Shown in pieces: positions 48,965-63,933 of a stretch of DNA of 64,000 nt (positions within the stretch are counted from its first letter, which is position 1; each line of letters starts with the position of its first letter). Source of the DNA: Prosthecomicrobium sp. N25 (GTDB lineage: Bacteria; Pseudomonadota; Alphaproteobacteria; Rhizobiales; Ancalomicrobiaceae); contig NZ_JBBCAT010000001.1 in NCBI RefSeq assembly GCF_037203705.1, positions 62,001 through 126,000 on the forward strand, read 5' to 3'. A program made the translations under genes and the position numbers. The notes beneath the pieces are model-generated. The model was given only the letters and a program-made list of their open reading frames with translations. It made no database searches and was not told the DNA's origin.

Positions 48965-49002
48965 CGGACCCGGAGGCGGTCCCGTCGACACTCGATCCTA
49001 AC

Positions 49003-49030
49003 TGGTGTAATGACATCACGTGTCATCACC
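49003..49030. promoter_or_regulatory. Operator-like site 1 ahead of the apiose-type operon
   Basis: TGGTGTAATGACATCACG (49003-49020) with the palindrome ATGACA-TCACG-TGTCAT (49010-49026) lies 20 bp before the first gene's ATG. A related 18-mer (13 of 18 identical) lies upstream of the apiosidase-like gene at the other end of the cluster. FadR/NanR-type GntR proteins bind GGTAT-like and palindromic sites; the GntR gene at 57587 is the likely partner. Confidence 0.6.
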
Positions 49031-49040
49031 CGGAGGTCGG

Positions 49041-50063
49041 ATGCGCGGCGCCCTGATCGGTTGCGGCTTCTTCGCCCGGAACCACCTCGCCGCCTGGCGC
49101 GGGCTGGGCGTCGACATGGTCCTGTGCGACCGGGTGCGCGAGCGAGCAGAGGCGCTCGGGGCCGAGTTCGGCGCCGCCGCCCTGTGGACCGACGCGGCCG
49201 CGATGCTGGCCGGCGAGAGGCTCGACTTCGTGGACATCGCCACCACGGTGGAGAGTCATCGGGCCCTGGTCGAGCAGGCCGCCGCCCGCGGCCTGCCGAC
49301 GATCTGCCAGAAACCCTTCGCGCTCGACCTCGACGAGGGCCGCGCCATGGTGGCCGCGGCGGCCCGCGCCGGCGTGCCGCTTCTCGTCCACGAGAACTTC
49401 CGCTGGCAGACCCCGATGCTGGCGGTCGCCGACGCGCTGACCGCCGGAGCGGTCGGCCGGCCCCACTTCGGGCGGATCTCGTTCCGCCACGGCTTCGACA
49501 TCTATGCCAACCAGCCCTACCTCGCGACCGAGCCTCGGCTCGCCCTGGTCGACGTCGGCGTCCACGTCCTCGACCTCGCCCGCTTCTTCCTCGGAGACGT
49601 GACGCGCCTCTATGCCCGCACGCAGCGGCTCAACCCGAAGGTCGCCGGCGAGGACGCCGCGACTCTCGTCCTCGACCATGCCGGCGGCGCGGTCTCGACC
49701 GTCGAGATCTCCTTCTTCTCCCGGCTCGACCCCGATCCCTTCCCGCAGACCCTGGTCCGCATCGAGGGGGACCGCGGCACCGTGGAGCTCGGCCAAGACT
49801 ACCGCCTCTCCGTCACCTCCGCGGGCCGCACCGCCGTCCGCAGCGTCGAGCCGGCGGTGCCGCCCTGGGGCGCCCGGCCCTGGCATGCGATCCAGGACAG
49901 CGTCGTCAACATCGAGCGTCACTTCCTCGATTGCCTGCGGACCGGGGCTGAGCCCCGTCCCTCCGGCGCCGACAACCTGAAGACCCTGGAACTCGTCTTT
50001 GCCGCCTACGACAGCGCCGCCCGCGGCGAGGCCGTGGCCTTCCCCCGGGAGGCGGGCCGGTGA
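49041..50063 (+). CDS. apsD: Gfo/Idh/MocA oxidoreductase, probable D-apiose dehydrogenase
   Basis: NAD(P)-dependent sugar dehydrogenase of 340 aa. Seen: nucleotide-binding GCGFFARNH at residues 7-15, the catalytic K91-P92 in QKPFALD, HENFRWQ and DVGVHVLDLARFF with the conserved Asp/His of the family. In published D-apiose pathways the first enzyme (ApsD), which makes apionolactone, belongs to this family, and all following enzymes of that route are encoded here. ATG 49041 follows CGGAGG. It overlaps the RuBisCO-like gene by 4 bp. The substrate assignment is by context. Confidence 0.78.
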   Translation: MRGALIGCGFFARNHLAAWRGLGVDMVLCDRVRERAEALGAEFGAAALWTDAAAMLAGERLDFVDIATTVESHRALVEQAAARGLPTICQKPFALDLDEGRAMVAAAARAGVPLLVHENFRWQTPMLAVADALTAGAVGRPHFGRISFRHGFDIYANQPYLATEPRLALVDVGVHVLDLARFFLGDVTRLYARTQRLNPKVAGEDAATLVLDHAGGAVSTVEISFFSRLDPDPFPQTLVRIEGDRGTVELGQDYRLSVTSAGRTAVRSVEPAVPPWGARPWHAIQDSVVNIERHFLDCLRTGAEPRPSGADNLKTLELVFAAYDSAARGEAVAFPREAGR

Positions 50064-51304
50064 GCGACAGGATCGCCGCGACCTACATCCTGGAGACCGC
50101 CGACGATCCCGCGCGCGCCGCCGCGGTCATCGCGGGCGAACAGTCGAGCGGCACCTTCGTGGCCCTCCGCCGCGAGACGGCGGGCCTCCTGGAGCGCTCC
50201 GGCGCCGAGGTCGAGGCGCTCGAGATCCTCGGCGAGGTCCCCGGCCCGTCTCTGCCGGGATCCAGGCCGGGTCCCGTCCACCGCCGCTGCCGGCTGCGCC
50301 TCTCCTGGCCGCTCGGCAACCTCGGCCCGTCCCTTCCCAACCTCGTCGCCACCGTCGCCGGCAATCTCTTCGAATTGAAATGCGTCGCCGGGCTCCGCCT
50401 CGTCGGCCTCGACCTGCCGGAGGCCTTCGCGGCCCGCTACCCGGGGCCCCGCCACGGCATCGCGGGCACCCGCACCCTCGCGGGCGTCCCGCAGGGTCCC
50501 CTGATCGGCACGATCGTCAAGCCGAGCGTCGGCCTCTCGCCGGAGGAGACCGCCGAGGAGGTCGCCGCGCTGGTCGCCGGCGGCATCGACTTCGTCAAGG
50601 ACGACGAGCTCCAGGCCGACGGCCCGAACTGCCCCTTCGAGGCCCGCGTCAAGGCGGTCATGCGCGTCGTGCGCGCGGGCGCCGAGCGGACCGGCCGCAA
50701 GGCCATGGTGGCCTTCAACCTGACGGGCGACCTCGACGAGATGCGGCGGCGCCACGATCTCGTGCTCGCCGAGGGCGGGACCTGTGTGATGGCGAGCCTG
50801 CACTCGGTCGGCTTCGTCGGCATCCTGGAACTCGCGCGCCACAGCGTCCTGCCGATCCACGGCCATCGCAACGGCTGGGGATACCTCTCCCGCCACCCGG
50901 CCCTCGGCTTCGACTACGCTCCCTGGCAGATGCTCTGGCGTCTGGCCGGCGTCGACCACCTGCACGTCAACGGCCTCGCCAACAAGTTCTGCGAGCCGGA
51001 CGACAGTGTCGTGGCCTCCGCGCGGGCCGTGCTCGCGCCCGTGTTCCCGTCGCGCCCGATGGCCGCCATGCCGGTCTTCAGCTCAGGGCAGACCGTCCGC
51101 CAGGCCGCTCCCACCTTCGCGGCCGTCGGCACCACGGACCTGATCTTCGCCGCCGGCGGCGGCATCTTCGGCCATCCCGCCGGCGTGAAGGCGGGCGTCG
51201 AGGCCCTCCGGGCGGCCTGGGACGCGGCGGTCGCGGGCGAGCCCCTGGAGGCGGTCGCCCGGCGGGACCCCGGCGTCGCCGCCGCGATGGAGATCGGGCG
51301 ATGA
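50060..51304 (+). CDS. RuBisCO-like protein, 3-oxo-isoapionate-4-phosphate-cleaving type (OiaX or OiaT)
   Basis: RuBisCO-like protein of 414 aa, GTG start. Seen: K154 in TIVKPSVGLS (equivalent of RuBisCO K175), the metal/carbamate motif K180-D-D182-E183, H267/H269-R270 in IHGHRNG, K309 in a loop-6-like LANKF, and the phosphate-binding GGGIFGHP. It is not a CO2-fixing RuBisCO: the large-subunit N-terminal signature and small-subunit gene are absent. Two RuBisCO-like enzymes act in apionate catabolism: OiaX (decarboxylase giving erythrulose phosphate) and OiaT (transcarboxylase/hydrolase giving 3-phosphoglycerate and glycolate). Absence of erythrulose-phosphate isomerase genes nearby leans slightly to OiaT. 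Confidence 0.85.
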   Translation: MSDRIAATYILETADDPARAAAVIAGEQSSGTFVALRRETAGLLERSGAEVEALEILGEVPGPSLPGSRPGPVHRRCRLRLSWPLGNLGPSLPNLVATVAGNLFELKCVAGLRLVGLDLPEAFAARYPGPRHGIAGTRTLAGVPQGPLIGTIVKPSVGLSPEETAEEVAALVAGGIDFVKDDELQADGPNCPFEARVKAVMRVVRAGAERTGRKAMVAFNLTGDLDEMRRRHDLVLAEGGTCVMASLHSVGFVGILELARHSVLPIHGHRNGWGYLSRHPALGFDYAPWQMLWRLAGVDHLHVNGLANKFCEPDDSVVASARAVLAPVFPSRPMAAMPVFSSGQTVRQAAPTFAAVGTTDLIFAAGGGIFGHPAGVKAGVEALRAAWDAAVAGEPLEAVARRDPGVAAAMEIGR

Positions 51305-52683
51305 GCGCCCCGCCCGCCCTGCCGGACGGCCTGCTCCTCGCCTACTACGGCGACGACTTCACCGGTTCCACCGACACCATGGAGGTGCTGACCTTCGCGG
51401 GCCTCGAGACGGTCCTGTTCCTGGAGGACCCCACGCCGGCGCGGCTCACCCGCTTCCCCGGCGCCCGTGCGGTCGGCATCGCCGGAGTCTCCCGCAGCCG
51501 CGACCCGGACTGGATGCGCGAGCACCTGCCCGGTCGCTTCGCCGCCCTCGCCCGGCTCGGCGCGCCGATCCTGCAGTACAAGGTCTGCTCCACCTTCGAT
51601 TCCGCACCCCATGTCGGCTCGATCGGGGCGGCGATCGATCTCGGCGTCGCCTTCGCGCCCGGGTCGCGCTTCACCCCGGTGGTGGTCGGCGCGCCGCGGC
51701 TCCGGCGCTACCAGGCCTTCGGCAACCTCTTCGCCGCGATCGACGGGGTCGGTTACCGCCTCGACCGGCACCCGACCATGGCGCACCACCCGGTCACCCC
51801 CATGGCCGAGGCCGACCTGCGCCTGCATCTCGCCCGACAGACCGGCCGGCGTCTCGGGCTCGTCGACCTCGTCGCCCTGAAGCAGGGCCGCGGCACCGCC
51901 GCGCTCGCCGGCCTTCAGGCAGACGATTGCCCAGCGGTCTTCATCGACCTGTTCGACGACGAGACAAGCGCCGAAGCCGGACGCCTCGTCTGGGACCACC
52001 GGGGCGATGGCCTCTTCACCGCCTCCTCGTCGGGATTGCAATACGCGCTCGTCGCCCACTGGCGCGCCGCCGGCCTCCTCGGGCCGGAGACGCCCCCGCG
52101 GCCGGCCGCGCCGGTCGACCGGATCGCGGTCGTGAGCGGCAGCGCCTCCCCGGCGACGGCTGGCCAGATCGCCTGGGCGGAGGCCAACGGCTTCGAGCCG
52201 ATCCGCCTCGACGCCGCGAGGGTCGCCGCGGAGTCTCGCGAGGTCGAGCGCGAGGGCGGCCGGCTGGCCGGCGCCGCCCTCGAGGCTCTCGGCCGCGGCC
52301 GCGACCCGCTCGTCTTCAGTGCCCAAGGGCCGGCCGATCCCGCGCTCGCCGCCACCCGGGACGCCGCCCGCCGCGCCGGCCTGCGCCCCGGCGAGGCGGG
52401 GCGCCGCATCGGCCGGACCCTCGCCGTCGCCCTGCGCCGCATCCTGGACGAGGCGCGGCTGCCCCGCGTCGCGGTCGCGGGCGGCGACACCTCCGGCGAG
52501 GTGGCCGGCGGGCTCGGCCTCTTCGCTCTGACCGCCCTCGCCCCGCTCGCGCCGGGCTCCCCGCTCTGCCGCGCCTGGTCCGACGATCCCGGCCGCTCCG
52601 GCCTGGAGGTCGCGCTCAAGGGCGGGCAGGTGGGTCCGCCGTCCTTCTTCGGCGCCGTGAAGGCCGGCGCGCCCCTGACCTGA
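51301..52683 (+). CDS. oiaK: Four-carbon acid sugar kinase family, probable 3-oxo-isoapionate kinase
   Basis: Kinase of 460 aa in the former DUF1537 family. Seen: the N-terminal substrate motif YYGDDFTGSTDTMEVL (D18, D19), QYKVCSTFDSAPHVGSIG, and the C-terminal nucleotide-binding part with VVSGSASPATAGQI and VAVAGGDTSGEVAGGL. In the apionate route this family phosphorylates 3-oxo-isoapionate to feed the RuBisCO-like enzyme, whose gene it overlaps by 4 bp. That coupling supports the role. Confidence 0.82.
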   Translation: MSAPPALPDGLLLAYYGDDFTGSTDTMEVLTFAGLETVLFLEDPTPARLTRFPGARAVGIAGVSRSRDPDWMREHLPGRFAALARLGAPILQYKVCSTFDSAPHVGSIGAAIDLGVAFAPGSRFTPVVVGAPRLRRYQAFGNLFAAIDGVGYRLDRHPTMAHHPVTPMAEADLRLHLARQTGRRLGLVDLVALKQGRGTAALAGLQADDCPAVFIDLFDDETSAEAGRLVWDHRGDGLFTASSSGLQYALVAHWRAAGLLGPETPPRPAAPVDRIAVVSGSASPATAGQIAWAEANGFEPIRLDAARVAAESREVEREGGRLAGAALEALGRGRDPLVFSAQGPADPALAATRDAARRAGLRPGEAGRRIGRTLAVALRRILDEARLPRVAVAGGDTSGEVAGGLGLFALTALAPLAPGSPLCRAWSDDPGRSGLEVALKGGQVGPPSFFGAVKAGAPLT

Positions 52684-52704
52684 CACGAGAGGAGAACCCC
52701 GTCC

Positions 52705-53541
52705 ATGCAGAAGATCGCACTGCTCGGCGCCGGCGGGAAGATGGGAAGACGGCTCGCCACCAACCTGCGCGGCGGCCCCTGGCAGGTCGACCACGTCGAG
52801 GTGAACCCGACCGCCCGCGCGGCGGTCGAACGCGACCTCGGGGTCGCCTGCGTGCCCGCCGACAACGCCCTGGCGGACGCCGACGCCATCCTGATGGCCG
52901 TCCCGGACGCCCTCATCGGCAAGATCGCCAAGAGCTTCATCGAGCGGGTGAAGCCGGGCGGCGCCATCGTGATGCTCGACGCCGCCGCCCCGCATGCCGG
53001 CGAGCTGCCGAGGCGGGACGACGTCACCTACTTCGTCACCCATCCCTGCCACCCCTCGATCTTCAAGCACGAGCCGACCGCCGAGCGCCACGCCGACTAT
53101 TTCGGCGGCATCGCCCCGCAGGCGATCGTCTGCGCCCTCATGCAGGGTCCGGAGGCGCACTACGCCGAGTGCGAGGCGATCGCCAGGGCGATCTATGCGC
53201 CGGTCACCGTTTCCCACCGCGTCACGGTCGAGCAGATGGCGATCCTGGAACCCGGCCTGTCGGAGACGATCGGCGCCACCCTGGTGACGGCCCTGCGCGA
53301 GGCGACCGACGCGGCGGTCAAGCGCGGCGTGCCGGCCGCGGCCGCCTTCGACTTCATGCTCGGCCACCTCGGCATCGAGCTCGCGCTCCTCTTCGACCAG
53401 TACCCCGGCCAGTTCTCGGACGGGGCGAAGCTCGCCATCGCCAAGGCCAAACCGCGGCTCCTGCGCGAGGACTGGCTGTCGGTGCTGGAACCGGCCGCCA
53501 TCACGGACAGCGTCAAGGACATCTGCAATCCGGCCGGATGA
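52705..53541 (+). CDS. apnO: Probable D-apionate oxidoisomerase
   Basis: NAD-dependent enzyme of 278 aa. Seen: Rossmann loop GAGGKMGRRL (residues 8-17), LMAVPDALIGKIAKSF, THPCHPSIFKHEP with its His pair, and a helical C-terminal domain with a PGDH_C-like DFMLGHLGIELALLFDQ. The arrangement fits ApnO, which oxidises D-apionate and shifts its hydroxymethyl group to give 3-oxo-isoapionate. It has GAGAGGAGAACC upstream and lies 21 bp after the kinase gene. Assigned by family resemblance plus the RLP/kinase neighbours. Confidence 0.8.
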   Translation: MQKIALLGAGGKMGRRLATNLRGGPWQVDHVEVNPTARAAVERDLGVACVPADNALADADAILMAVPDALIGKIAKSFIERVKPGGAIVMLDAAAPHAGELPRRDDVTYFVTHPCHPSIFKHEPTAERHADYFGGIAPQAIVCALMQGPEAHYAECEAIARAIYAPVTVSHRVTVEQMAILEPGLSETIGATLVTALREATDAAVKRGVPAAAAFDFMLGHLGIELALLFDQYPGQFSDGAKLAIAKAKPRLLREDWLSVLEPAAITDSVKDICNPAG

Positions 53542-53574
53542 GCCGGAAGCCTGAAGACAACCGGAGGAAACGCC

Positions 53575-54852
53575 ATGTCGACGTCCTGGAACCGCCGCAG
53601 CTTCACCCTCGCTCTCGCCGGCGCCCTCGCGGCCGGCGTGCCGGTCCTCCCCGCCTCCGCCCAGACCGTGCCGTCCGGCAAGGTCACGGTCGAGCTCTTC
53701 GGCCTCGTGACCAACGGCTTCGACCCGGTCATCGAGGCCTTCCAGAAGGACTATCCGAACATCACCGTGAAGTGGACGAAGTTCGGCACCGACGAGTTCA
53801 AGCAGGCGCTGCGCGTCGGCGCCGCCTCCGGCAAGATGCCCGACCTGTGGTTCAACTGGGGCGGCAGCCTCGCCTACCCGTACAGCCGCGCCGGCCTCAC
53901 CCTCGACCTCACCGGCCGCATCCAGGATCTGAAGCTCGACCAGACTCTGGTGCCGACCGCCATTGTGCTCGCCCAGGATCGCGGCAAGCTTTACGGCGTG
54001 CCGAACCGCATCGTGCCGATGACGATCGTCTACCGGAAGGAGATGTTCGAGAAGGCTGGCGTCAAGGTGCCGAACACCTTCGCGGAGCTCGAGGAGGCCT
54101 GCGCCAAGCTGAAGGCCGCCGGCATCACGCCCTTCTCGCTGGGCGGCAAGTTCAGCTGGATGACCATGCGCTTCACCGACTTCTTCATGGAGCACTACGC
54201 CGGTCCGAAGCTGCATGACCAGATCAAGGCCATGGAGGCGAGCTGGGACCAGGACGCGGTCGTGAAGTCCTTCGCCAAGCTCAAGGAATGGAACGACAAG
54301 GGCTGGTTCAACCAGGGCTTCCTGAACGTCGACCCGGCCACCAACATGCAGCTCGTCTACCAGGGCAAGGCCGCCATGGTGCTGGAGGTGCCCTCCATCG
54401 AGGTGACTCGCCTGAAGCGCGAGAACATCGACCCCTCGACCTACGGCACCTTCCTGATGCCGACCGACCAGACCCCGCGCCGCGTCTCCGGCTTCCAGCA
54501 GCAGCTGCAGGTCTCCGCCAAGGCGCCGAAGGACGTCCAGGACGCCGCCCTGCTCTTCGCCACCTACGTGGTGCGCCCGGACCTCGCGGCGAAGCACATG
54601 GCGAGCATCGGCGGGCCGAGCGCCGCCAGGGGCGTGGTGCCGGGCGCCGACTCCCCCCTCCAGGCCCAGTACGCCACCTGGCTGCAGGAGGGCCTGCAGC
54701 TCTTCCTGCCGGGCGACCAGGCGCTCCCGCAGGAGATGGTGGCCGCCTATTTCGAGGCCCAGGATTCGGTGATCCTCGGCGCCATGACGCCCGCCGAGGC
54801 CGCCAAGAGCGTCCAGCAGGCGATCACCGGCTTCAAGGCCCGCCAGCAGTGA
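53575..54852 (+). CDS. ABC sugar-binding protein (CUT1/family 1 type)
   Basis: Periplasmic binding protein of 425 aa. Seen: a twin-arginine-like signal (NRRSFTLALAGALAAG, cleavage near ASA-QT), then VTVELFGLVTNGFDPVIEAFQKDYPN, FNWGGSLAYPYSRAGLTLDLTG and KLYGVPNRIVPMTIVYRKEMF, typical of family 1 oligosaccharide binders. Known apiose importers that I recall use the pentose/ribose-type binding proteins; this one belongs to the oligosaccharide-type group. It overlaps the first permease gene by 4 bp. Confidence 0.93.
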   Translation: MSTSWNRRSFTLALAGALAAGVPVLPASAQTVPSGKVTVELFGLVTNGFDPVIEAFQKDYPNITVKWTKFGTDEFKQALRVGAASGKMPDLWFNWGGSLAYPYSRAGLTLDLTGRIQDLKLDQTLVPTAIVLAQDRGKLYGVPNRIVPMTIVYRKEMFEKAGVKVPNTFAELEEACAKLKAAGITPFSLGGKFSWMTMRFTDFFMEHYAGPKLHDQIKAMEASWDQDAVVKSFAKLKEWNDKGWFNQGFLNVDPATNMQLVYQGKAAMVLEVPSIEVTRLKRENIDPSTYGTFLMPTDQTPRRVSGFQQQLQVSAKAPKDVQDAALLFATYVVRPDLAAKHMASIGGPSAARGVVPGADSPLQAQYATWLQEGLQLFLPGDQALPQEMVAAYFEAQDSVILGAMTPAEAAKSVQQAITGFKARQQ

Positions 54853-55784
54853 GCCTCGGCGGGGCCGATACCGCGGCGGCGACGCCGGCGGCCGGGCGAG
54901 GGGGCTCCAACCCCCTCCGCACCGAGTGGCGGATCGGCGCGCTCTTCCTCGCGCCGGCCCTCCTCCTCTACGTGACCATCATCATCTACCCCCTGATCTA
55001 TTCCTCCTGGCTGAGCCTCTTCGAATGGGACGGCATCAGCCCCACCCGGCGCTTCGTCGGCCTCGACAACTACGCGACGCTCTGGAGCCAGAACCGGGTC
55101 TTCTGGATCGCCTTGAAGAACAGCGCGCTCTGGACCGCCGTCGCCCTGGTGGTGCCGACGAGCATCGGCCTCGGCCTGGCGCTCCTCCTCAACCGCTCCT
55201 TCGCGGGCCGCGGCTTCTACCGGGGCCTCTTCTACTTCCCCGCCATCCTGTCGCTGAGCCTCTGCGGCCTGATCTGGACCTGGATCTACCACCCGACGCT
55301 CGGCTTCCTGAACCAGTTCCTCGGCTGGGTCGGCCTGGAGTCCCTGCACCGCGCCTGGCTGTCGGAGCCCTCCATCGCGCTCTTCGCCGTCATGGTGGCG
55401 GCCGGCTGGCACAACACCGGCCTGCCGATGCTGCTCTACCTCGCCGGCCTGCAGACCATCCCCAGGGAGGTGCTCGAGGCCGCCGAGGTCGACGGCGCCA
55501 CGGCCTTCCAGCGCTTCCGGCACGTGACCTGGCCGATGCTGAAGGACACCACCTTCGTGGTTCTCGCCATCACCTTCATCAACTCCCTGAAGGTCTACGA
55601 CGTCGTCTACGTGATGACCTTCGGCGGCCCCGCCAACCAGACCCAGGTGCTCGGCACCTGGATGTACTTCCTGACCTACAACTTCAACCGGATCGGCCTC
55701 GGCACCGCCATCGCGGTCGTGCTCTTCGGTCTGACCCTGATCTTCGCCATCCCGTACACCCGCAAGCTGGGACAGGAGTCATGA
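54849..55784 (+). CDS. ABC sugar permease 1 (MalF/UgpA type)
   Basis: Membrane permease of 311 aa with six expected helices; GTG start in a GTGA overlap. Seen: LFLAPALLLYVTIIIYPLIYSSWLSLF at the start and the EAA loop LEAAEVDGATAFQRFRHVTWP. It has no long MalF-type periplasmic domain, as in UgpA/LacF. It pairs with the permease at 55781. No ATPase gene is in the cluster. Confidence 0.93.
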   Translation: MSLGGADTAAATPAAGRGGSNPLRTEWRIGALFLAPALLLYVTIIIYPLIYSSWLSLFEWDGISPTRRFVGLDNYATLWSQNRVFWIALKNSALWTAVALVVPTSIGLGLALLLNRSFAGRGFYRGLFYFPAILSLSLCGLIWTWIYHPTLGFLNQFLGWVGLESLHRAWLSEPSIALFAVMVAAGWHNTGLPMLLYLAGLQTIPREVLEAAEVDGATAFQRFRHVTWPMLKDTTFVVLAITFINSLKVYDVVYVMTFGGPANQTQVLGTWMYFLTYNFNRIGLGTAIAVVLFGLTLIFAIPYTRKLGQES

Positions 55785-56656
55785 GCCTCGTGGTCGCCGG
55801 ACGGGACTCGGGCTCCGCCGTCCTGCCCCATGCCGGCCGGGCCGCGATCCCGCGCATCGCCTTCTATGTCGGCCTCTCCCTCTTCGCCCTGGTCTGGATC
55901 GCGCCGGTCTTCATCCTGGTCTTCACGGCGCTGAAGTCCGCCTCCGACTTCGCCCACGGCGGCACCTTCGCGCTGCCGGAACGGATCGAATGGGCGAACT
56001 TCGCCAAGGCCTGGGACGTCGGCATCCGGACCTACTTCGCCAACTCGGCCCTGATGACCCTGGTCAAGGTCCCGGCCGGCGTGCTGATCGCCGCCATGGC
56101 GGCCTTCGCGCTGACCTTCCTGCGCCTGCCCGGCAGCCGCGCGCTCTTCACCTTCTTCATCGTCGGGCTGGTGGTGCCGATCCAGATGACGCTCGTGCCG
56201 CTGACGCTGCTGCTGCGCAACCTCGATCTCATCGACAGCCTCTTCGGCCTGTTCTGGCTCTACCTCGGCTTCGGCCTGCCCTTCGCCATCATGGTGATGC
56301 GCGGCTACATGCGGTCGATCCCGCGCGAACTGGTCGAAGCCGCGCTGATCGACGGCTGCTCCTGGTTCGGGGTCTTCCGGCGCATCGTGCTGCCCTTGTC
56401 CACGCCCGCCGTGGTGTCGCTCCTGATCTTCGACGGCATCGCCACCTGGAACGAGTTCATCCTCGCCCAGATCTTCCTGCGCCAGAACTCCAACCGCACC
56501 CTGCCGCTCGGCCTCGTCAACTTCCAGACCGAGTTCTCGACCGCCTACGAGCTCCTCGCGGCGGCCCAGTGCATCACCATCGTGCCGCTCGTCGTCGTCT
56601 ACCTCTTCTTCCAGAGGTACTTCGTCGACGGCCTGTCCGGCTCGATCAAGTCATGA
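55781..56656 (+). CDS. ABC sugar permease 2 (MalG/UgpE type)
   Basis: Membrane permease of 291 aa. Seen: WIAPVFILVFTALKS, VGLVVPIQMTLVPLTLLL, and the EAA loop ELVEAALIDGCSWFGVFRRIVLP, followed by a C-terminal YFVDGLSGSIKS, which is typical of the MalG-type subunit. It overlaps the preceding permease by 4 bp. The shared ATP-binding subunit must be encoded elsewhere. Confidence 0.94.
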   Translation: MSLVVAGRDSGSAVLPHAGRAAIPRIAFYVGLSLFALVWIAPVFILVFTALKSASDFAHGGTFALPERIEWANFAKAWDVGIRTYFANSALMTLVKVPAGVLIAAMAAFALTFLRLPGSRALFTFFIVGLVVPIQMTLVPLTLLLRNLDLIDSLFGLFWLYLGFGLPFAIMVMRGYMRSIPRELVEAALIDGCSWFGVFRRIVLPLSTPAVVSLLIFDGIATWNEFILAQIFLRQNSNRTLPLGLVNFQTEFSTAYELLAAAQCITIVPLVVVYLFFQRYFVDGLSGSIKS

Positions 56657-56676
56657 TCCTCGGAGGGGACCCCGTC

Positions 56677-57582
56677 ATGCCGCTGCCGCCCGAAAAGATG
56701 CACCGCGTCATCATCAACACCGACGCCAAGAACGAGGCCGACGACCAGTACGCCATCGTGCATGCCCTGCTGACCCCCTCCTTCGACCTGCACGGCATCG
56801 TGCCCGCCCACTTCGGCAGCGTGAAATCCAAGACCAGCCTGAAGGATTCCGCCGACGAGGTGGCCAGGATCCTCGACCTGATGGAGCTTTCCGGCCGCGT
56901 CCGCGTGGCCGACGGCGCCGCGGGGCCGATCCCCGACGAGGCGACCCCGGCGCCCTCGCCGGGCGCCGAGATGATCGTCCGCGAGGCCATGCGGGACGAC
57001 CCGCGACCCCTCCACGTCGCCTTCCTGGGCCCGCTCACCGACATGGCCTCGGCGATCCTGATGGAGCCGCGGATCGTCCGGCGCAACGTTCGCGTGGTCT
57101 GGATCGGCGGCGGCCACTGGCCGGTCGGCGGCCGCGAGTACAACCTCTCCAACGACATCGCCGCCGCCAACGTGGTCATGCGTTCGGGCATCGAGGTCTG
57201 GCAGATCCCGATGACCGTCTACCGCCTGATGGCCGTCTCGTATGCCGAGCTCTACGAGCGGGTCTACGACAAGGGGGCGATCGGCCGCTATCTGGTCGAG
57301 CAACTGATCGACTGGAACAGCCGTATGGTCGCCGGCCCGATCGAGCACCGTTCGCTCGGCGACAGCCCGGCCATCGGCGTCATCATGTACCCGGACTGCG
57401 GCAAGTGGGAGTACCGACCCGGACCCGAGTGGAACGCCGTGATGAACTATGTGCACACCGGCCAGAACCGGCCCGTGAAGGTCTATGAAAACGTCGACCA
57501 GCGCTTTATCCAGGAGGACTTCTTCGCCAAGCTGGCACGCTTCGCCAGGGGCTTGCGCGAATTCGCCAAATTCGACGGATGA
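56677..57582 (+). CDS. Nucleoside-hydrolase-fold protein with divergent metal loop
   Basis: Cytoplasmic protein of 301 aa in the inosine-uridine nucleoside hydrolase superfamily, which cleaves furanosyl bonds with a calcium ion. Seen: strand plus metal loop IINTDAKNEADDQYAIVHALL (D16, D22, D23), longer by two residues than the usual DTDxGxDDxxA, then HVAFLGPLTDMASAI, VWIGGGHWPVGGREYNLSNDIAAANVV with the conserved N/D pair, and PIEHRSLGDSP. ATG 56677 is chosen for GGAGGGG at 56662-56668. Placed in an apiose operon, it may hydrolyse an apiofuranosyl compound rather than a nucleoside. Function inferred from context only. Confidence 0.8.
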   Translation: MPLPPEKMHRVIINTDAKNEADDQYAIVHALLTPSFDLHGIVPAHFGSVKSKTSLKDSADEVARILDLMELSGRVRVADGAAGPIPDEATPAPSPGAEMIVREAMRDDPRPLHVAFLGPLTDMASAILMEPRIVRRNVRVVWIGGGHWPVGGREYNLSNDIAAANVVMRSGIEVWQIPMTVYRLMAVSYAELYERVYDKGAIGRYLVEQLIDWNSRMVAGPIEHRSLGDSPAIGVIMYPDCGKWEYRPGPEWNAVMNYVHTGQNRPVKVYENVDQRFIQEDFFAKLARFARGLREFAKFDG

Positions 57583-57586
57583 CGCC

Positions 57587-58345
57587 ATGCGGCCGGAGCC
57601 GATCCTTCGACGGAAGCTCTACCAGGAGGTTCTCGAGCGGCTTCTCGGCCGGATCGAGAGCGGCGAGATCGCGCCCGGCGATCCGCTGCCCTCCGAGCGC
57701 GAGCTGATGGAGGCCTACGGGGTCGGCCGGCCCGCGATCCGCGAGGCCCTGCAGTCGCTCGAGCGCTGGGGCATCGTCACCATCAGCCACGGCGAGCGGG
57801 CGCGCCTGGTCGTGCCCTCCGCCGACAACCTCATCGCGCAGATCCAGGAGGGCGCCCGCCACCTGCTGCGCTCGGAGCCGCATTCGCTCGGGCACCTGAA
57901 GGACGCCCGGCTGTTCCTGGAGACCGGCCTCGCCCGCCTGGCGGCCGAGCGCGCCGACGAGGCCGGCATCGCGGAGCTTCGCGCGCGCCTCGACGAGCAC
58001 AAGGCGGCGCTGGCGCGCCTCGACGAGTTCATCGACCGCGACATGGCCTTCCACCGGCAGGTGGCCCGGCTGACCGGCAATCCGATCTTCCCGGCCATCA
58101 TCGAGGCCATGTTCAGCTGGCTGGCCGCCTACTACCGCTCGCTCGTCCGCGCCCCCGGCGCCGAGATGCTGACCATCGCCGAGCACGAGCGCATCCTCGC
58201 GGCGATCGCGGCCCGCGATCCGGATGCCGCCGCGGCCGCCATGCACGATCACCTGAGCCGCGCCAACGCGCTCTACCGCCGCTTCGAGGCCGGCGGCGAG
58301 GACGCGGGCGAGGACGGCCGGGGCGGCGGCGGGCCGCCGTCGTGA
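57587..58345 (+). CDS. GntR/FadR-type regulator of the apiose-type cluster
   Basis: Regulator of 252 aa. Seen: an N-terminal winged helix (about residues 8-78) with RRKLYQEVLERLLGRIESGEIAPG, LPSERELMEAYGVGRPAIREAL, and an FCD domain (about 95-235) with its metal ligands in DRDMAFHRQVARLTGN, ANN-type replaced by IAEHERILAAI and MHDHL. It is close to the NanR/UxuR-like group. The gene lies inside the catabolic operon and overlaps the lactonase gene (GTGA). The paired operator-like sites at 49003 and 61562 are its likely targets. Confidence 0.92.
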   Translation: MRPEPILRRKLYQEVLERLLGRIESGEIAPGDPLPSERELMEAYGVGRPAIREALQSLERWGIVTISHGERARLVVPSADNLIAQIQEGARHLLRSEPHSLGHLKDARLFLETGLARLAAERADEAGIAELRARLDEHKAALARLDEFIDRDMAFHRQVARLTGNPIFPAIIEAMFSWLAAYYRSLVRAPGAEMLTIAEHERILAAIAARDPDAAAAAMHDHLSRANALYRRFEAGGEDAGEDGRGGGGPPS

Positions 58346-60243
58346 CGCCCGAGCGGCGCCTCGCGCTCTTCGGCACCGCCGAGCCCCCGCCGGCGACCCT
58401 GTCCCTGCAGGCCGGCGCGCTCACGCTCGATCTCGTCGACGGCGCCGTCGGGACCGTCACGCGGAACGGCGTCGAGATCCTGCGCGGCATCGCCTTCCTG
58501 ATCCGCGACGAGGCCTGGGGGACGCCCGCCGCGGAGTTGGAGCCGCTCGCCGTCGAGACCCGCCCGGACGGGTTCCGGGTCGCGTGGCGCGGGCGCATCG
58601 CGGTCGCCGGCGCCGCCTTCGCCTTCACGGCCCGCCTCGAGGGCGACCCCGACGGGCACCTGCTCTTCGCCGTCGAGGGCGCCGCGGACGCCGACCTGAA
58701 GACCAACCGGGCCGGCTTCGTCCTCCTTCACCCGGCGGGCTTCGCCGGCCTCCCCGTCACCCTGCACACTGTCGACGGCGGCCGCACCGACGCGGTCTTC
58801 CCGACCGTGATCAGCCCCGGCCAGCCCTTCTTCGACCTGCGCGCCCTGGAGGTCCGGCTCGACGGCGTCGGCCGGGTGACCTGCCGGATGGAGGCCTCCC
58901 TCCCCGGAGACCCGCTCGGCCGCTTCGAAACCGAGGACCAGCGCAACTGGGGCGACGCCTCCTACAAGACCTACGTCGGCTCCCTCCTCGACCCCTGGCC
59001 CTACGTCCTGCAGGCCGGCCGCCCCCTGGCGCAGCGCATCGGGATCACCGTCGAGCCGGAGGCGCCGCAAGCGCGCGTCCGCTCCCGCTCCGCGCCGGCG
59101 GCCGCGGCGGTCCCTGCCCCCGTCCGCCTTCCGGTCTTCGGGCTCGGCGTTCCCCACGGCCTGGACCGGGCCGACCCCGCCGACCGCGATCGCGTGGCGG
59201 CCCTCGGGCTCCGCCGGCTTGTGGTCGAGGCGGACCTGCGGCGGCCCGGCGTCGAGGGTCACCTGCGCGCCGCGGCGGCCCTCGCGGCCCGGACCCGGGC
59301 CGACGTGCAGGTCGAACTGGTCACCCCCGCCGCGTCGCCGGCCCGCACGGAGCTCGAGGCCGCGGCCCGCCTGCTCGCTGCCGCCGGGCTCGCGCCGGAG
59401 TCCGTCCTGGTCTGCCCGGCGCCGCTCCTGAAGAGCTACCAGCCGGTCGGCCCCTGGCCCGACATCGAGCCGCTGGAGGCCTGGTACGCCGCCGCCCGGG
59501 CCGCCTTCCCGGGCGCGCGCCTCGGCGGCGGCATGCTGACGAACTTCACCGAGCTGAACCGGAAGCGCCCCGACCCTTCCGGCCTGGACTTCATCTCCCA
59601 CACGACGACCGCCATCGTGCACGCCGCGGACGACCGCTCCGTGATGGAGACCCTCGAGACGCTGCCCCAGATCGCCGCCAGCGTCGCCGTGCTCTGGCCC
59701 GGCCTGCCCTACCGGCTCGGTCCCTCCTCGATCGCCATGCGGTCGAACCCCTACGGCGCTACCCTGCCTGAGAATCCGGGCTGGACGCGCATGCCGCTCG
59801 CCGACCGTGACCCGCGCCACCGCGCCCTCTTCGGCGCCGCCTGGACGGTCGGGTATGTGGCCGCGCTCGTTCCCTCGGCCCTGGAGGCGATCGCCCTCCA
59901 TGCGAGCCACGGCCCCCTCGGCCTCGGCGAGGGCGCCCGCCTCTTCCCGGTCTTTCATGTGATGGCCGCCCTCGCGGAGGCGTCGGGCCGGGAGGCGGTC
60001 GCGTTGGACCTGCCGAAGTCGCTCGCCGGCCTCGCCTGGCGCGGGCCCGCCGGCACCACGGCGCTGGTCGCCAACCCGACCGCCGAGCCGGCGGACTGGC
60101 CCTTTGCGGCCCGGCCCGCCCGGGTCCTCGACGCCGCGAGCCTGGCGCCTGCGGGCGCGGACCCTGCCTGGATCCGGGCCGCGCCCACCCCCGCGCCCGC
60201 CCGCCTCGACGCCTTCGCGGTCGCGCTCGTGGCGATCGGCTAG
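58342..60243 (+). CDS. apnL: Probable D-apionate lactonase (ApnL family)
   Basis: Protein of 633 aa, GTG start overlapping the GntR stop. Seen: an N-terminal beta-rich domain (about residues 10-240; TLDLVDGAVGTVTRNGVEILRG, EDQRNWGDASYKTY), a central TIM-barrel-like domain (about 260-570; VLVCPAPLLKSYQPVGPWP, GGGMLTNFTELNRKRPD, LDFISHTTTAIVHAADD) and a small C-terminal beta domain. Length and pattern agree with ApnL, which opens D-apionolactone to D-apionate. No signal peptide, so it acts in the cytoplasm on the product of the ApsD-like enzyme. Convergent with the hydrolase at 60257. Confidence 0.82.
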   Translation: MTPERRLALFGTAEPPPATLSLQAGALTLDLVDGAVGTVTRNGVEILRGIAFLIRDEAWGTPAAELEPLAVETRPDGFRVAWRGRIAVAGAAFAFTARLEGDPDGHLLFAVEGAADADLKTNRAGFVLLHPAGFAGLPVTLHTVDGGRTDAVFPTVISPGQPFFDLRALEVRLDGVGRVTCRMEASLPGDPLGRFETEDQRNWGDASYKTYVGSLLDPWPYVLQAGRPLAQRIGITVEPEAPQARVRSRSAPAAAAVPAPVRLPVFGLGVPHGLDRADPADRDRVAALGLRRLVVEADLRRPGVEGHLRAAAALAARTRADVQVELVTPAASPARTELEAAARLLAAAGLAPESVLVCPAPLLKSYQPVGPWPDIEPLEAWYAAARAAFPGARLGGGMLTNFTELNRKRPDPSGLDFISHTTTAIVHAADDRSVMETLETLPQIAASVAVLWPGLPYRLGPSSIAMRSNPYGATLPENPGWTRMPLADRDPRHRALFGAAWTVGYVAALVPSALEAIALHASHGPLGLGEGARLFPVFHVMAALAEASGREAVALDLPKSLAGLAWRGPAGTTALVANPTAEPADWPFAARPARVLDAASLAPAGADPAWIRAAPTPAPARLDAFAVALVAIG

Positions 60244-60256
60244 AGCCTTCGGTCGC

Positions 60257-61528
60257 TCAGTCCCGTTCGGCGAGGACGAGGTAGTCGGCATTGAGCGCCG
60301 GCTGCAGGATCGTCGACGCTGCGCCGGGCAGGACCTCCGGCCAGAAGGCGGCCCGCGCCTCCAGGTCGATCGCCGTCACACGCCAGCCGGCGAGGTCGGC
60401 CGCGAGGACGAGGTCGGTCGGCGCGGGGCAGTAGACCGCGATCCGGCGGCCGTCCGCCGACGCCATGGCACGCGCCTCGGGACCGCCCGTCGTCAGGAGC
60501 CCGGTGGGGTCGAGGGCGAAGAGGGCGTGGGTCTCGAAGAGGTGCCGGGCGAAGCCCATGTCGACGGCCCCGGGAAGCTGCAGGGCGTCCTCCCAGTCGA
60601 AGGGCTCCAGCGAGCGCGCCCGGGCCAGGAAGTCGAAGCCGCGCCGGTGGAAGCTCCACACGCCGTGCGCCCCGTAGGCCACGCCCATCTTGGCACCCGA
60701 CATCAGGCTCTGCCACGCGGCGCGCCGCACCTCGGCGCGCGACCAGCGGCTGCCGTCGGGCGCGATCCGCCCGTGGCCCTCGTAGCAGGGCTCGGAGTTC
60801 AGGACCGGGATCGGCTTCGGGTAGGCCCGGAACTTCTCGGCGAGCCGCCAGGCCCGGTCGGCGTGGGCCACGTGGTGCCCGGACTGGAAGGAGTAGAAGT
60901 CGACCGCCGTGTCGAAGGGCGGGGGAAGGTCGCCCTCCGGGTGCAGGTGCATGGAGATCGTCGCCTCCGGCCAGACGGCCCTTACGGCGTCGAGGGCGGC
61001 GCCGTAGTAGGGAGCCTCCATCTCGGACTCGAATCGGGTGTCGCCGCTGATCACCATCACGGGCTCGAAGCGCCGGAACCGCTCCGTCACGTGCCGCGCG
61101 TAGGGGGCGACGTTCGCCAGCGCCATCGCGGAGGCGATCGGGCTGCCGCGCGAGCAGCGGGTATCGGGCACGTAGCTGCACCACAGCACCGTGAGCACGG
61201 GGAGGAAGCCGGCCTCCACGGCCATGCCGACCATCCGCTCGGCGCGATCGAAATAGGCCGGGTTGGGCCTCGCGAAATCCCAGCGCCCGTCCGGGTGGAG
61301 TTCGAAGGGCGGGATCTCGCTCGGCGGCACGCTGCGGTCGTGGGTGATCGGCAGGATGCTGATCTGCAGCGCCGTGAAGCCCTGCCGCCTGCGCACCGCC
61401 AGGTAGCGCGCCCATTCGTCGTAGTCGACATTCGAGAAGGTCGCCCAGACGGTATCGGCCAGGTAGAAGAAGGCCTTGCCGTCCTTCAGGAAATGATCGC
61501 CGGTGGGCGCGCGCGTCAGACGAGCCAT
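60257..61528 (-). CDS. Cytoplasmic apiosidase-like glycoside hydrolase (GH140/DUF4038 type)
   Basis: Barrel hydrolase of 423 aa, related to the catalytic domain formerly called DUF4038 and found in the apiosidase BT1012 (GH140). Seen: an N-terminal FYLADTVWATFSNVDYDEW, ISGDTRFESEM with the acid/base candidate D163, and PVLNSEPCYEG with the nucleophile candidate E246, then a C-terminal beta domain. No signal peptide is present; ATG 61528 has GGAGG just upstream, and a longer start at 61696 is not better. It would free D-apiose from imported apiosides in the cytosol. It is transcribed towards the main operon from its own operator-bearing promoter. Confidence 0.78.
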   Translation of the reverse strand: MARLTRAPTGDHFLKDGKAFFYLADTVWATFSNVDYDEWARYLAVRRRQGFTALQISILPITHDRSVPPSEIPPFELHPDGRWDFARPNPAYFDRAERMVGMAVEAGFLPVLTVLWCSYVPDTRCSRGSPIASAMALANVAPYARHVTERFRRFEPVMVISGDTRFESEMEAPYYGAALDAVRAVWPEATISMHLHPEGDLPPPFDTAVDFYSFQSGHHVAHADRAWRLAEKFRAYPKPIPVLNSEPCYEGHGRIAPDGSRWSRAEVRRAAWQSLMSGAKMGVAYGAHGVWSFHRRGFDFLARARSLEPFDWEDALQLPGAVDMGFARHLFETHALFALDPTGLLTTGGPEARAMASADGRRIAVYCPAPTDLVLAADLAGWRVTAIDLEARAAFWPEVLPGAASTILQPALNADYLVLAERD

Positions 61529-61834
61529 GGGGGCCTCCGGGCCGGACCGGTTGCGCCGACCTATCATGTCATCATACCAGCGCATGGGTCTATGTCCATG
61601 GCTGCCCGGAGCTCGGCGCAGCCCGGCGAGATCTCCAAAGGGAACGGGGGCGCTCCGAGCGAAATCGGACGAAGGGTCCCAATCGCTTTGAATCATCCCG
61701 AAGTTTTTACCTTAATTTCCGACCCGGTGCAGTCAGACGTGCTACGCCAAGTTGCTGGGGGTGGAACCTCTAGAACGACACCTAAATTCTGATATACTGG
61801 CGCAAAATGGCTCAGCTGCAGAATTCCGGTGAAC
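61529..61834. other. Divergent promoter region between apiosidase-like and GT2 genes
   Basis: About 306 bases without a gene. It carries operator-like site 2 (61562-61579) and, near 61690-61830, an AT-rich stretch that probably contains the promoter of the GT2 operon. Confidence 0.5.
61562..61579. promoter_or_regulatory. Operator-like site 2 ahead of the apiosidase-like gene
   Basis: On the minus strand it reads TGGTATGATGACATGATA, 34 bp upstream of the ATG at 61528. It matches site 1 (49003-49020) at 13 of 18 positions, most differences being transitions, and contains a degenerate palindrome TATSATGWCATSATA. Confidence 0.6.
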
Positions 61835-62937
61835 ATGGTACCCCGCCCCGTATCCGTGATCGTCCCTGCCTACAATGCATCCCAGTTTTTAGAGAGAACC
61901 CTGGACTCTGCGCTCAAGCAGACGATTTCTCCGGTCGAAATCCTTGTGGTCGACGATGGGTCGAAGGACCGGACACCGGAAATTGTTCGGCAATACGAGA
62001 AACGCGAGGCCCGTGTACGCCTGATCCAACAAACCAACGCGGGTGTCGCTGCGGCACGCAATACGGGTATACGGCTCAGCCAGGGGGAATACATCGCGCC
62101 CCTGGATGCGGACGACCTCTGGGCTCCCCACAAGCTGGAGCGGCAAGTGGCCCGGCTCGAGGCGGGCGGCGCGGACGTCGGGTACGTCTACACCCTGTAT
62201 CGCCTTATCGAGGCCGACGACACGGTCGTGTTCGACCGCAAGCCCTACCGCCCGGAGGGCTGGGTCTTCCTCCAGCAGGCGATCCAGAACTTCATCGGCT
62301 GCGGCAGTTCGGTGCTGATGCGGCGCTCCGCCGTGTTCGAGATGGGCGGCTATTCGAGCCGCCTCCGCGAGGAGGGCCTGGAGGGCTGCGAGGACTTGTT
62401 TCTGCAACTCTCGATCGCGGCCAGCTACCGGGTACTCGCGGTGCCGGAGCATCTGCTGGGGTACCGGCGCACGCCCAACAACATGTCGAGCGATTGGTAC
62501 CGCATGGCCCAGTCGCGCCGGGCCGTTCTGGAGAGCTTCCTCGCCCGGTCGTCCGGCGAGGTCGCCGAGGTTCTGCAGGACGCCCTGTTCCGGACCGACC
62601 TCAACGTGCTGCGCGTCGGGCTGAAGCGGATGAAGCTCGCCGCCGTCGCCCGGGTCGTGTCCGACCGCGCCCGGATCCACGACGTCCGCCTCGCCGAGTT
62701 CGCGGGTGAGTTGAAGAAGATGACCATGCGCCGGCTCGGCCGCGCCGTCCCGTCCGGGGATGCGGGCCGACCTCAGGGCCGCCGCTTCGAGGACTACGAG
62801 CCGGACGAACTGGTCGACGGCGGCCCCGATCCCGACCTCGCCGTCCTGATGGCGCGTGCCCGCGCGGTCGACGCCGTCCGTGGCGGCCGCTACCTGGACA
62901 GCCCGCCCGAGCTCGGGCACCTCGCGGCGGATCCGTC

Positions 62938-62941
<4 letters not shown>
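61835..62941 (+). CDS. Glycosyltransferase family 2 protein
   Basis: GT-A-fold glycosyltransferase of 368 aa. Seen: VSVIVPAYNASQFLERTLDSAL, ILVVDDGSKD (D40, D41), LDADD (D91, D93, D94) for metal and nucleotide-sugar, GCGSSVLMRRSAVFEMGGYSS and GCEDLFLQL with the catalytic ED pair. It probably acts in exopolysaccharide assembly. The first 250 bases are clearly less GC-rich than the rest of the window. Start at ATG 61835; GTG 61829 is an alternative. It overlaps the next gene by 4 bp. Confidence 0.93.

Positions 62942-63929
<988 letters not shown>

Positions 63930-63933
<4 letters not shown>

Follow-up and report, generated by a model that had tools for sequence, protein, structure and literature searches.

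Apiose occurs in pectin, where it lies at the boron cross-link, and in numerous flavonoid glycosides, and an oxidative pathway for D-apiose that involves a RuBisCO-like protein and runs through ApsD, ApnL, ApnO, OiaK and OiaX or OiaT was reportedly described by Carter et al. in 2018. Genes for the five oxidative steps, along with growth on D-apiose, are documented for the Rhodobacteraceae strain LCG007 in the sections of a report that concern this strain (PMC11747546), and a transketolase pathway for the same substrate, comprising AptA, AptB and AplK, is presented in the sections of another report on an operon of Escherichia coli SE15 (PMC13001218). Like the oxidative pathway, the locus analyzed here holds relatives of all five oxidative enzymes in one operon; unlike it, the locus adds a CUT1 importer, two hydrolases predicted to be cytosolic (one of the GH140 type, one with the nucleoside-hydrolase fold, hereafter NH) and a shared sequence site, and its RuBisCO-like protein (RLP), ApnL and OiaK fall under the equivalog cut-offs. 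The transketolase pathway employs other catabolic enzymes than this cassette, and its NH-bearing versions share NH and sometimes the CUT1 importer. From the gene content, import, cytosolic removal of apiose and catabolism of apiose compounds seem to be kept in one regulon, and NH may be an apiose-releasing enzyme of a new type. Literature searches that paired apiose with nucleoside hydrolase, or apiosidase with cytoplasm, found no open-licence PubMed Central paper.

The window, a stretch of 64,000 nucleotides from Prosthecomicrobium sp. N25, carries ten genes on the plus strand within positions 49041-61528 and one convergent PF13204/GH140 gene. The coordinates, strands and dense packing given in the original prediction agree with the gene calls, and every frame is open; that prediction counted nine plus-strand genes and left unnamed the tenth, the nucleoside-hydrolase-like gene at 56677-57582, and its mostly 4-bp overlaps are present at five of the nine plus-strand junctions (apsD/RLP, RLP/oiaK, SBP/permease 1, permease 1/permease 2 and gntR/apnL) and absent from the rest. 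The same gene order, including the convergent GH140 gene, recurs in two other genomes (loci L074 and L075) at protein identities of 56-88%, and the arrangement is therefore not a product of chance.

Profile matches in NCBIfam and Pfam bear out the enzyme families that had been proposed, and the best NCBIfam matches of the RLP, the kinase and the lactonase are to models of the D-apiose pathway rather than of threonate or lyxonate use. The ApsD-like dehydrogenase (49041-50063, plus strand, with GTG at 49020 as a possible alternative start), which would convert D-apiose to apionolactone, belongs to the Gfo/Idh/MocA family; because the NCBIfam search of this protein gave no match to an ApsD model, the protein is named from its family and position, an ApsD homologue adjoining ApnL in L037, L038, L040 and L052-L056. 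The RLP (50060-51304, plus strand) falls in the 3-oxo-isoapionate-4-phosphate group, matching PDB 3nwr at 399.8 bits and the OiaX equivalog NF042437 at 412.6 bits, below the cut-off of 700, and is not filed as OiaX, while the RLPs of L051, L052 and L054 exceed that cut-off (758-780 bits). The protein may act as a decarboxylase or, perhaps, be of the transcarboxylase/hydrolase type, which we take to be the one named OiaT, and the step assigned to it in the cassette is a prediction from this grouping. The OiaK-like 3-oxo-isoapionate kinase of the DUF1537 family (51301-52683, plus strand) scores 672.5 bits against NF042436 (E 2.5e-202), just under the cut-off of 700, which none of the 297 genomes of the order passes when the best few candidates per genome are scored, the window's genome having the best score. 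It is followed by a conserved neighbour, the ApnO-like D-apionate oxidoisomerase of the PGDH_C family (52705-53541, plus strand; PF16896, 200 bits). The ApnL-like D-apionolactonase (58342-60243, plus strand) matches NF049900 over nearly the full model at 492.6 bits (E 1.6e-147), under the cut-off of 750 that 8 of the 297 genomes pass.

Between these enzymes lie the importer genes: a CUT1-type solute-binding protein (SBP) with a signal-like N-terminus (53575-54852, plus strand; SBP_bac_1/8, about 102 bits; hydropathy peak 2.16), permease 1 (54849-55784, plus strand; BPD_transp_1), whose GTG start overlaps the SBP stop, and permease 2 (55781-56656, plus strand). Homologues of both permeases are present in 27 of 80 NH loci, these being the best 80 of at least 433 confirmed NH relatives. 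The ABC importer of the original prediction is thus borne out for its binding protein and permeases and not for an ATPase, given that none of the genome's 138 ATPase matches lies within the window. Thirteen ATPases elsewhere in the genome pass the UgpC cut-off. Since the importer ATPase gene is missing from the cassette, the description of the island as self-contained was inexact.

A GntR/FCD regulator gene (57587-58345, plus strand) precedes apnL, and its product scores 310 bits against NF003011, above the NanR-subfamily cut-off of 260. In the 5.95-Mb genome, CTGGTRTRATGA occurs at exactly two sites, CTGGTGTAATGACATCA ahead of the apsD operon (49002-49018, plus strand) and CTGGTATGATGACATGA ahead of the GH140 gene (61564-61580, minus strand), and the reversed-pattern control gives zero sites; the single regulon proposed earlier thereby gains sequence support. 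Both copies are putative operators or extended -10 elements, the core resembling an extended -10 box (TGnTATAAT). With L082 and L084 left out as the same records as L038 and L037, CTGGTRTRATGA is found in 18 of 23 loci with at least three oxidative-route genes, in none of 40 transketolase-route loci, in none of 27 control loci and in 5 of 55 other loci. The five oxidative loci without the exact motif are L036, L042, L071, L079 and L104, the last of which, from another phylum, also lacks a near form. Genomes G298 and G299, in which NH is separated from the oiaK region, each contain two TGGTATRATGA sites, one before the SBP-permease-permease-NH operon and the other about 1.5 kb before oiaK. In L053 the motif precedes ApnO and not the importer-PF13204 operon, and the pattern is not exclusive everywhere, with six sites in G297 and five in G099. 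The NanR-type regulator probably controls two transcription units through these near-identical sites, binding and direction of control being read from site placement, which makes for a testable regulon of two sites in a whole genome.

The convergent gene (60257-61528, minus strand) is the only PF13204 (Apiosidase) match in the genome, at 242 bits against a gathering score of 26.5, and its product matches the apiosidase of PDB 8t9w (E 2.1e-23). In alignments with 8t9w, 4qfu and 3kzs, D163 falls at the GD position and E246 at the EP position, so that both acids, presumably the catalytic Asp and Glu of GH140, are kept. A crude hydropathy window detects no strongly hydrophobic N-terminus, in line with the GH140/DUF4038-type hydrolase without signal peptide that had been predicted. 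The protein thus shares family and aligned catalytic residues with GH140 apiosidases such as 8t9w and 5msy and differs from them in having no signal-like N-terminus and in its tie, through the shared site, to intracellular catabolism. It would release apiose, both the apiose specificity and the linkage cut being predicted. The combination of importer, hydrolase and full route, thought to be possibly new, is not unique to this genome: in L037/L038 and L053, too, the oxidative route is accompanied by a CUT1 importer and a PF13204 protein without a signal-like N-terminus (judged by eye in L053).

The hydrolase named in the original prediction is the GH140-type protein; that protein is present, and NH (56677-57582, plus strand), a second candidate, goes unnamed there. 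NH matches PF01156 at 77.6 bits (gathering score 34.2) and, over part of the domain only, PF07632 at 35.2 bits (profile E 1e-4), the latter a short-region likeness to Sde182-type proteins such as the cellulose-binding protein of PDB 2yhg. Its AlphaFold model (pLDDT 94.4) matches 6zk5 in Foldseek with probability 1.00 and E 6.9e-16, and every one of the 50 solved relatives listed is a nucleoside or riboside hydrolase, superposed loosely (rmsd 4.7-7.2 A, TM 0.62-0.77). NH shares the fold of the PF01156 nucleoside hydrolases (RihA, YeiK, 1mas), and eight aligned residues, including those for calcium and the furanose, are kept in 37 of 37 NH sequences. In contrast to those enzymes, NH has a two-residue insertion in DxDxxxDD, lacks the RihA 78-86 loop in 37 of 37 sequences and has Gly at the RihA H240 position in 37 of 37, compared with His in 22 of 29 controls. 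We take the loop to line the nucleobase side and H240 to be the leaving-group His; both marks of a functional nucleoside hydrolase are absent from NH. NH likewise shows no signal-like N-terminus in the crude hydropathy window. This agrees, as do the equivalent GH140 result and the presence of a CUT1-type binding protein, with the cytosolic hydrolysis that had been predicted. From context and residues, we infer that NH is a cytosolic apiofuranosidase.

Within the best 80 of at least 433 NH loci, at least two transketolase-route genes accompany NH in 40 and at least two oxidative-route genes in 8, no locus has both routes at that level, and 28 have neither within the stretch read; profile searches find neither route in the 27 control loci of ordinary PF01156 nucleoside hydrolases. 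The AptA, AptB, AplK and ApsI profiles were built from members of the NH loci, the E. coli sequences serving as search queries only, and the names of the transketolase-route genes derive from matches of 33-52% identity to the operon of E. coli. When the E. coli proteins themselves serve as BLASTP queries, the loci with a match number 38 for AptA, 37 for AptB, 40 for AplK and 17 for SorC out of these best 80; of 40 ApnL-centred loci (chosen from 51 positive genomes), none has AptA or AptB and one, L056, has AplK and SorC. The genome of L056 (G286), a locus without NH, has an AptB gene, with AplK- and SorC-like genes beside the oxidative route. A follow-up of 18 genomes (17 of the 28 no-route loci plus L080) located a strong route gene elsewhere in nine (8 of the 17 plus L080), two being intermediate and seven having none at the strong level; the other 11 no-route loci are stretches shorter than 15 kb. 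Mapping the route label onto the NH tree takes four changes, at least two of them forced by supported branches; L120, on a very long branch, may be a second copy in its locus.

At strict E limits (1e-60, 1e-120 and 1e-90) and with the best few candidates per genome scored, NH is present in 7 of the 297 genomes of the order, all 7 with OiaK or AptB, compared with 74 of 297 overall (hypergeometric P 4.8e-5, ignoring kinship, four of the seven belonging to one genus and two to another); the search at E 1e-90 found no AptB in the window's genome. In a metagenome-assembled genome of another phylum (L104), NH lies inside ApnL-NH-ApsD-RLP-OiaK-ApnO with a 4-bp overlap with ApsD, and on two Microvirga plasmids an NH at 72% identity has an RLP at 60% roughly 6 kb away. 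Because only 2 of the 40 ApnL-centred loci carry NH (2 of the 17 with at least three core genes), NH is an optional part of the oxidative loci. By gene context, NH is linked to two unrelated apiose routes and, as far as these searches reach, is more widely shared than the other hydrolase candidate, GH140. A widespread orphan protein family is thereby nominated as an apiose-releasing enzyme.

We consider it fairly probable that the cassette is an apioside-use regulon with an importer powered in trans, two cytosolic hydrolases and the oxidative route. Under the NanR-type regulator, the CUT1 importer, with its ATPase supplied from elsewhere, would take up small apiose glycosides or oligosaccharides; the GH140 protein and NH would release D-apiose in the cytosol, each perhaps acting on its own type of linkage, such as apiosyl-galacturonate for one and apiobiose or aglycone-bound apiose for the other; and ApsD, ApnL, ApnO, OiaK and the RLP would then oxidize, open, rearrange, phosphorylate and cleave it. 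An unlikely alternative is that free D-apiose is imported and used, with GH140 and NH acting on something else or being relics. Catabolism in every step begins from free D-apiose, the annotated apiose operon of E. coli SE15 includes neither NH nor another hydrolase, and the oxidative loci L052-L056, without NH, encode a binding protein 46-49% identical to that of E. coli; strains bearing the SE15-type cluster grow on D-apiose, according to the sections of PMC13001218 that describe them. The window, however, has a CUT1-type binding protein, a kind also seen in 27 of the best 80 of at least 433 NH loci and, among the 40 ApnL-centred loci, in L053, where a PF13204 protein accompanies it, and just beyond the stretches of the NH-bearing L037/L038 (same records as L084/L082); moreover, the GH140 gene, both aligned acids intact, owns the genome's only other motif site. 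An RbsB-type protein is present too in 6 of these best 80 NH loci, so the split between importer kinds is not clean.

It is rather unlikely that NH hydrolyzes another furanoside, or a nucleoside accompanying apiose in plant matter, rather than apiosides. The identity of its 50 best solved relatives listed and the 28 of the best 80 loci (of at least 433) with no apiose route nearby speak for this reading, but the missing loop and the Gly at the leaving-group position speak against it, and in several phyla NH recurs beside apiose catabolism of one or the other of two unrelated routes, a partner seen with none of the 27 ordinary family members. We regard it as very unlikely that the substrate of the operon is a compound closely similar to apiose, such as another branched sugar or its acid: the OiaX, ApnL and OiaK scores all lie below their cut-offs, yet the full set of route families is present in one operon, the OiaK cut-off is passed by no genome of the 297, of which the window's scores highest, the PF13204 apiosidase gene shares the motif, and growth on D-apiose is reported for a Rhodobacteraceae strain that carries genes for all five of these steps (PMC11747546). 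Returning to the apioside reading, NH would cut the furanoside bond of apiose, and we place somewhat better than even chances on NH founding a new glycoside hydrolase family on the nucleoside-hydrolase fold, one of calcium-dependent cytosolic beta-D-apiofuranosidases found in many phyla, with both types of D-apiose catabolism and interchangeable importers. If so, this fold gains a glycosidase activity, and NH may mark users of apiosides as opposed to users of the free sugar.

Two flanking genes were considered. The assignment of 62938-63933 as a UDP-apiose synthase is unsupported, its four nearest structures being UDP-glucuronate decarboxylases, and the pectate-lyase-like gene at 47170-48888 was rejected as a cassette member for this lineage, with no relative in L074 or L075. 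Relatives of the latter lie near NH in 7 of the best 80 of at least 433 NH loci (L125, L133-L137 and L145).

The cassette at 49041-61528, whose coordinates and strands were upheld when the genes of the region were re-read, consists of ten closely packed genes on the + strand and one convergent gene. By profile search, the + strand genes encode, in order, an ApsD-like dehydrogenase, a RuBisCO-like protein (RLP), an OiaK-like kinase, an ApnO-like dehydrogenase, a CUT1 binding protein, two permeases, a nucleoside-hydrolase-fold protein (NH, 56677-57582), a NanR-type GntR regulator and an ApnL-like lactonase, after which the PF13204 (GH140) apiosidase gene (60257-61528, -) lies convergent to them. 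The original prediction counted nine + strand genes and left one, NH, unnamed; the dense packing it described holds, and its "mostly 4-bp overlaps" amount to five of nine junctions. The same order, GH140 included, recurs in a Hyphomicrobiales MAG (locus L074) and an Alsobacter MAG (L075), with protein identities from 56% (ApnL) up to 88%, and the cassette is patchy, because neither ApnL nor NH found a match in G070 and G106, both from the genus to which the window belongs.

Action of the oxidative enzyme set (ApsD, ApnL, ApnO, OiaK and RLP) on D-apiose is supported because a cluster for the same five steps accompanies D-apiose growth in strain LCG007 (PMC11747546); with the families assigned by profile search, the predicted D-apiose pathway stands as the best reading. 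The OiaK-like kinase (672.5 bits; curated cut-off, 700) and the ApnL-like lactonase (492.6 bits; cut-off, 750) match nearly the whole of their models without reaching these cut-offs. The RLP scores 412.6 bits on the OiaX model, under the curated cut-off of 700, and is therefore not assigned as OiaX; we take it to be possibly of the transcarboxylase/hydrolase type. RLPs of L042, L057 and L104 (455-529 bits) likewise fall under this cut-off, which those of L051, L052 and L054 pass (758-780 bits). The GH140 protein is the sole PF13204 match in its genome, aligns with the solved apiosidase 8t9w (E 2.1e-23) and retains the aligned Asp163 and Glu246. A crude hydropathy window detected no signal-like segment at its N-terminus (peak 0.99 vs 2.16 in the binding protein), and cytosolic hydrolysis, as originally predicted, remains the best reading.

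The AlphaFold model of NH is a confident one, with a pLDDT of 94.4 and a pTM of 0.93, and all 50 PDB matches listed for it are hydrolases of nucleosides or ribosides; they share 13-22% identity with it and superpose loosely (rmsd 4.7-7.2 A). In an alignment of 37 NH proteins with RihA, RihC and 27 control members, NH residues D16, D22, D23, T121, E154, N156, D160 and D229 are kept in 37/37 and correspond to RihA D10, D14, D15, T128, E164, N166, D170 and D241, respectively, among which are the calcium and furanose residues. In contrast, the RihA 78-86 loop is missing in all 37; the position of RihA H240 is occupied by Gly in 37/37 NH proteins and by His in 22/29 controls; RihA N39, present in 29/29 controls, is not conserved; RihA D8 is replaced by Asn in 32/37; and RihA N158, a 5'-OH contact, falls in a gap in 32/37. 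As judged from the alignment, NH appears to keep the furanose site but to lack the nucleobase side.

Scanning with three NH proteins as queries yielded at least 433 confirmed relatives, the best 80 of which were taken as NH loci, with labels including Alphaproteobacteria, Actinomycetota, Bacillota, Chloroflexota, Verrucomicrobiota and others. Many of these 80 contain a split transketolase, an FGGY kinase and a TIM-barrel isomerase. The apiose operon of E. coli SE15 (L154) encodes AptA, AptB, AplK and a SorC-type regulator, and carriers of the cluster it represents grow on D-apiose (PMC13001218). BLASTP with the E. coli proteins found relatives of AptA in 38 (43-52% identity), AptB in 37 (36-43%), AplK in 40 (33-48%) and SorC in 17 (36-44%) of the best 80 loci; in 40 ApnL-centred loci, it found no AptA or AptB, and AplK and SorC in one (L056). 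By profiles, at least two genes of the transketolase route (AptA/AptB/AplK) are present in 40 of the best 80 NH loci, at least two of the oxidative route in 8, and at least two of each in none; a single transketolase- or oxidative-route gene is present in 3 and 1, respectively, and neither route within the stretch in 28. Genome-wide, 17 of these 28 plus L080 were checked, the other 11 being stretches under 15 kb: OiaK (>450 bits) or AptB (>60% identity) was encoded elsewhere in 9 of 18 genomes (8/17 plus L080), two were intermediate, and seven had neither at these thresholds.

No route genes were found in 27 ordinary PF01156 loci of the same order. Among 297 genomes of the order, NH occurs in 7, each of which also has OiaK (5) or AptB (2); one or the other is present in 74 of the 297 overall (P 4.8e-5, uncorrected for kinship). 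In the NH tree, the two route contexts interchange, with 4 changes, at least 2 of them forced by supported branches. A Sphaerobacteraceae MAG (L104) has the order ApnL-NH-ApsD-RLP-OiaK-ApnO, with a 4-bp overlap of NH with ApsD. A search of a plasmid collection gave 34 records with a match to NH. The two at >=60% are plasmids of Microvirga ossetica and M. lotononidis, which each encode NH at 72% and, ~6 kb away, RLP at 60%. PF13204 relatives were detected in 12 of the best 80 loci, plus a few weaker ones, and none among the listed genes of Microvirga L076 and Devosia L086.

Because NH combines a furanose site that lacks its nucleobase side with recurrent partners from two unrelated apiose routes, of which D-apiose is the last common compound, its role is best explained as release of D-apiose. 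Apiofuranose has no hydroxymethyl at C4, which would fit the loss of the N158 contact. The NH family is put forward as a candidate apiofuranosidase and is a stronger lead than the pathway ideas on the cassette; no link of nucleoside hydrolases to apiose was found in open-licence PubMed Central literature.

Several individual loci deserve mention. Oxidative apiose genes adjoin AplK- and SorC-like genes in L056 (genome G286), and an AptB gene lies just before that stretch (G286:C1:123889-124818), so that this genome, which is without NH, has the two routes next to each other. Weak DUF5060/PF13204-like genes lie near NH in L119 and L126, and a second NH-like gene in L120. The NH proteins of L121 and L122 are identical and their neighbours match; the two MAGs bear the labels Deltaproteobacteria and Spirochaetaceae, one of which is probably a binning error.

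The cassette is not the self-contained island once proposed: it has no ATPase gene, and 13 UgpC-like ATPases over the cut-off are encoded elsewhere in the genome, which is rich in ABC transporters, the UgpC ATPase model matching it 138 times in all. A CUT1 binding protein accompanies NH in 27 of the best 80 loci; among ApnL-centred loci, it was found in L053 and, just beyond the stretches, in the L037/L038 records (seen in L084/L082). In L053, genes for a binding protein, two permeases, a PF13204 protein and an ATPase (the last by eye) adjoin ApnL-ApsD, and in L037/L038 NH is paired with a DUF5060-PF13204 protein without a signal-like N-terminus. In the oxidative loci L052-L056, a binding protein shares 46-49% identity with its counterpart from the E. 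coli operon; this type is also present in 6 of the best 80 NH loci (40-49%), and L053 has both types. Given L053, L037/L038 and the varied binding proteins, importer, cytosolic hydrolase and route seem to form a recurring plan whose parts can be exchanged, of which the window is one fine example and not a unique one. In L086 (Devosia marina), a transketolase-route apiose cluster with NH adjoins a family-5 (SBP_bac_5) binding protein and permease, which may be a third kind of importer within this plan.

When the sequences preceding apsD and GH140 in the window, L074 and L075 were compared, a common word emerged. Pattern search for CTGGTNTNATGACATNA with up to 2 mismatches gave two matches in the window, both exact (0.07 expected), at 49002-49018 before apsD and 61564-61580 before GH140. 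In the 5.95-Mb genome, CTGGTRTRATGA occurs exactly twice, at these putative sites, and the reversed pattern 0 times, lending the predicted single regulon support at the level of sequence. The motif is present in 18 of 23 loci with at least three oxidative-route genes (26 matches in 432 kb; 0.04 in mononucleotide shuffles), 0/40 transketolase-route loci, 0/27 control loci and 5/55 remaining loci. It is missing from five oxidative loci (L036, L042, L071, L079 and L104); in L079, a one-base variant precedes the SBP-NH operon. In two Inquilinus genomes (G298 and G299; L080 and L081), in which the NH operon lies away from the oiaK region, there are two TGGTATRATGA sites each, one before the SBP-perm-perm-NH operon and the other ~1.5 kb before oiaK; G130 and G225 have a single site each, ~6 kb before NH. 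Exclusiveness is weakened by six sites in G297 and five in G099, and the L053 site, which precedes ApnO and not the importer-PF13204 operon, also counts against it. In its core, the motif is similar both to an extended -10 box and to the direct GGTAT repeats found in NanR operators. The site has the opposite orientation to the operon after it in L077, L079, L080 and L081, which is more in keeping with an operator than with a -10 box.

Before the cassette, a secreted-looking protein (47170-48888, +) has weak pectate lyase likeness (PelZ, 53 bits, cut-off 840; PDB 9buj, E 7e-4), and 7 of the best 80 loci (L125, L133-L137 and L145) have a relative of it close to NH. Farther upstream, a long ORF (42875-46519, -) contains what we take to be a NosR-like nitrous-oxide-reduction regulator sequence. 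After the cassette, 61829-63933 (+) encodes what by eye is a likely family-2 glycosyltransferase, together with an SDR resembling UDP-glucuronate decarboxylase, and looks like a surface-polysaccharide locus.
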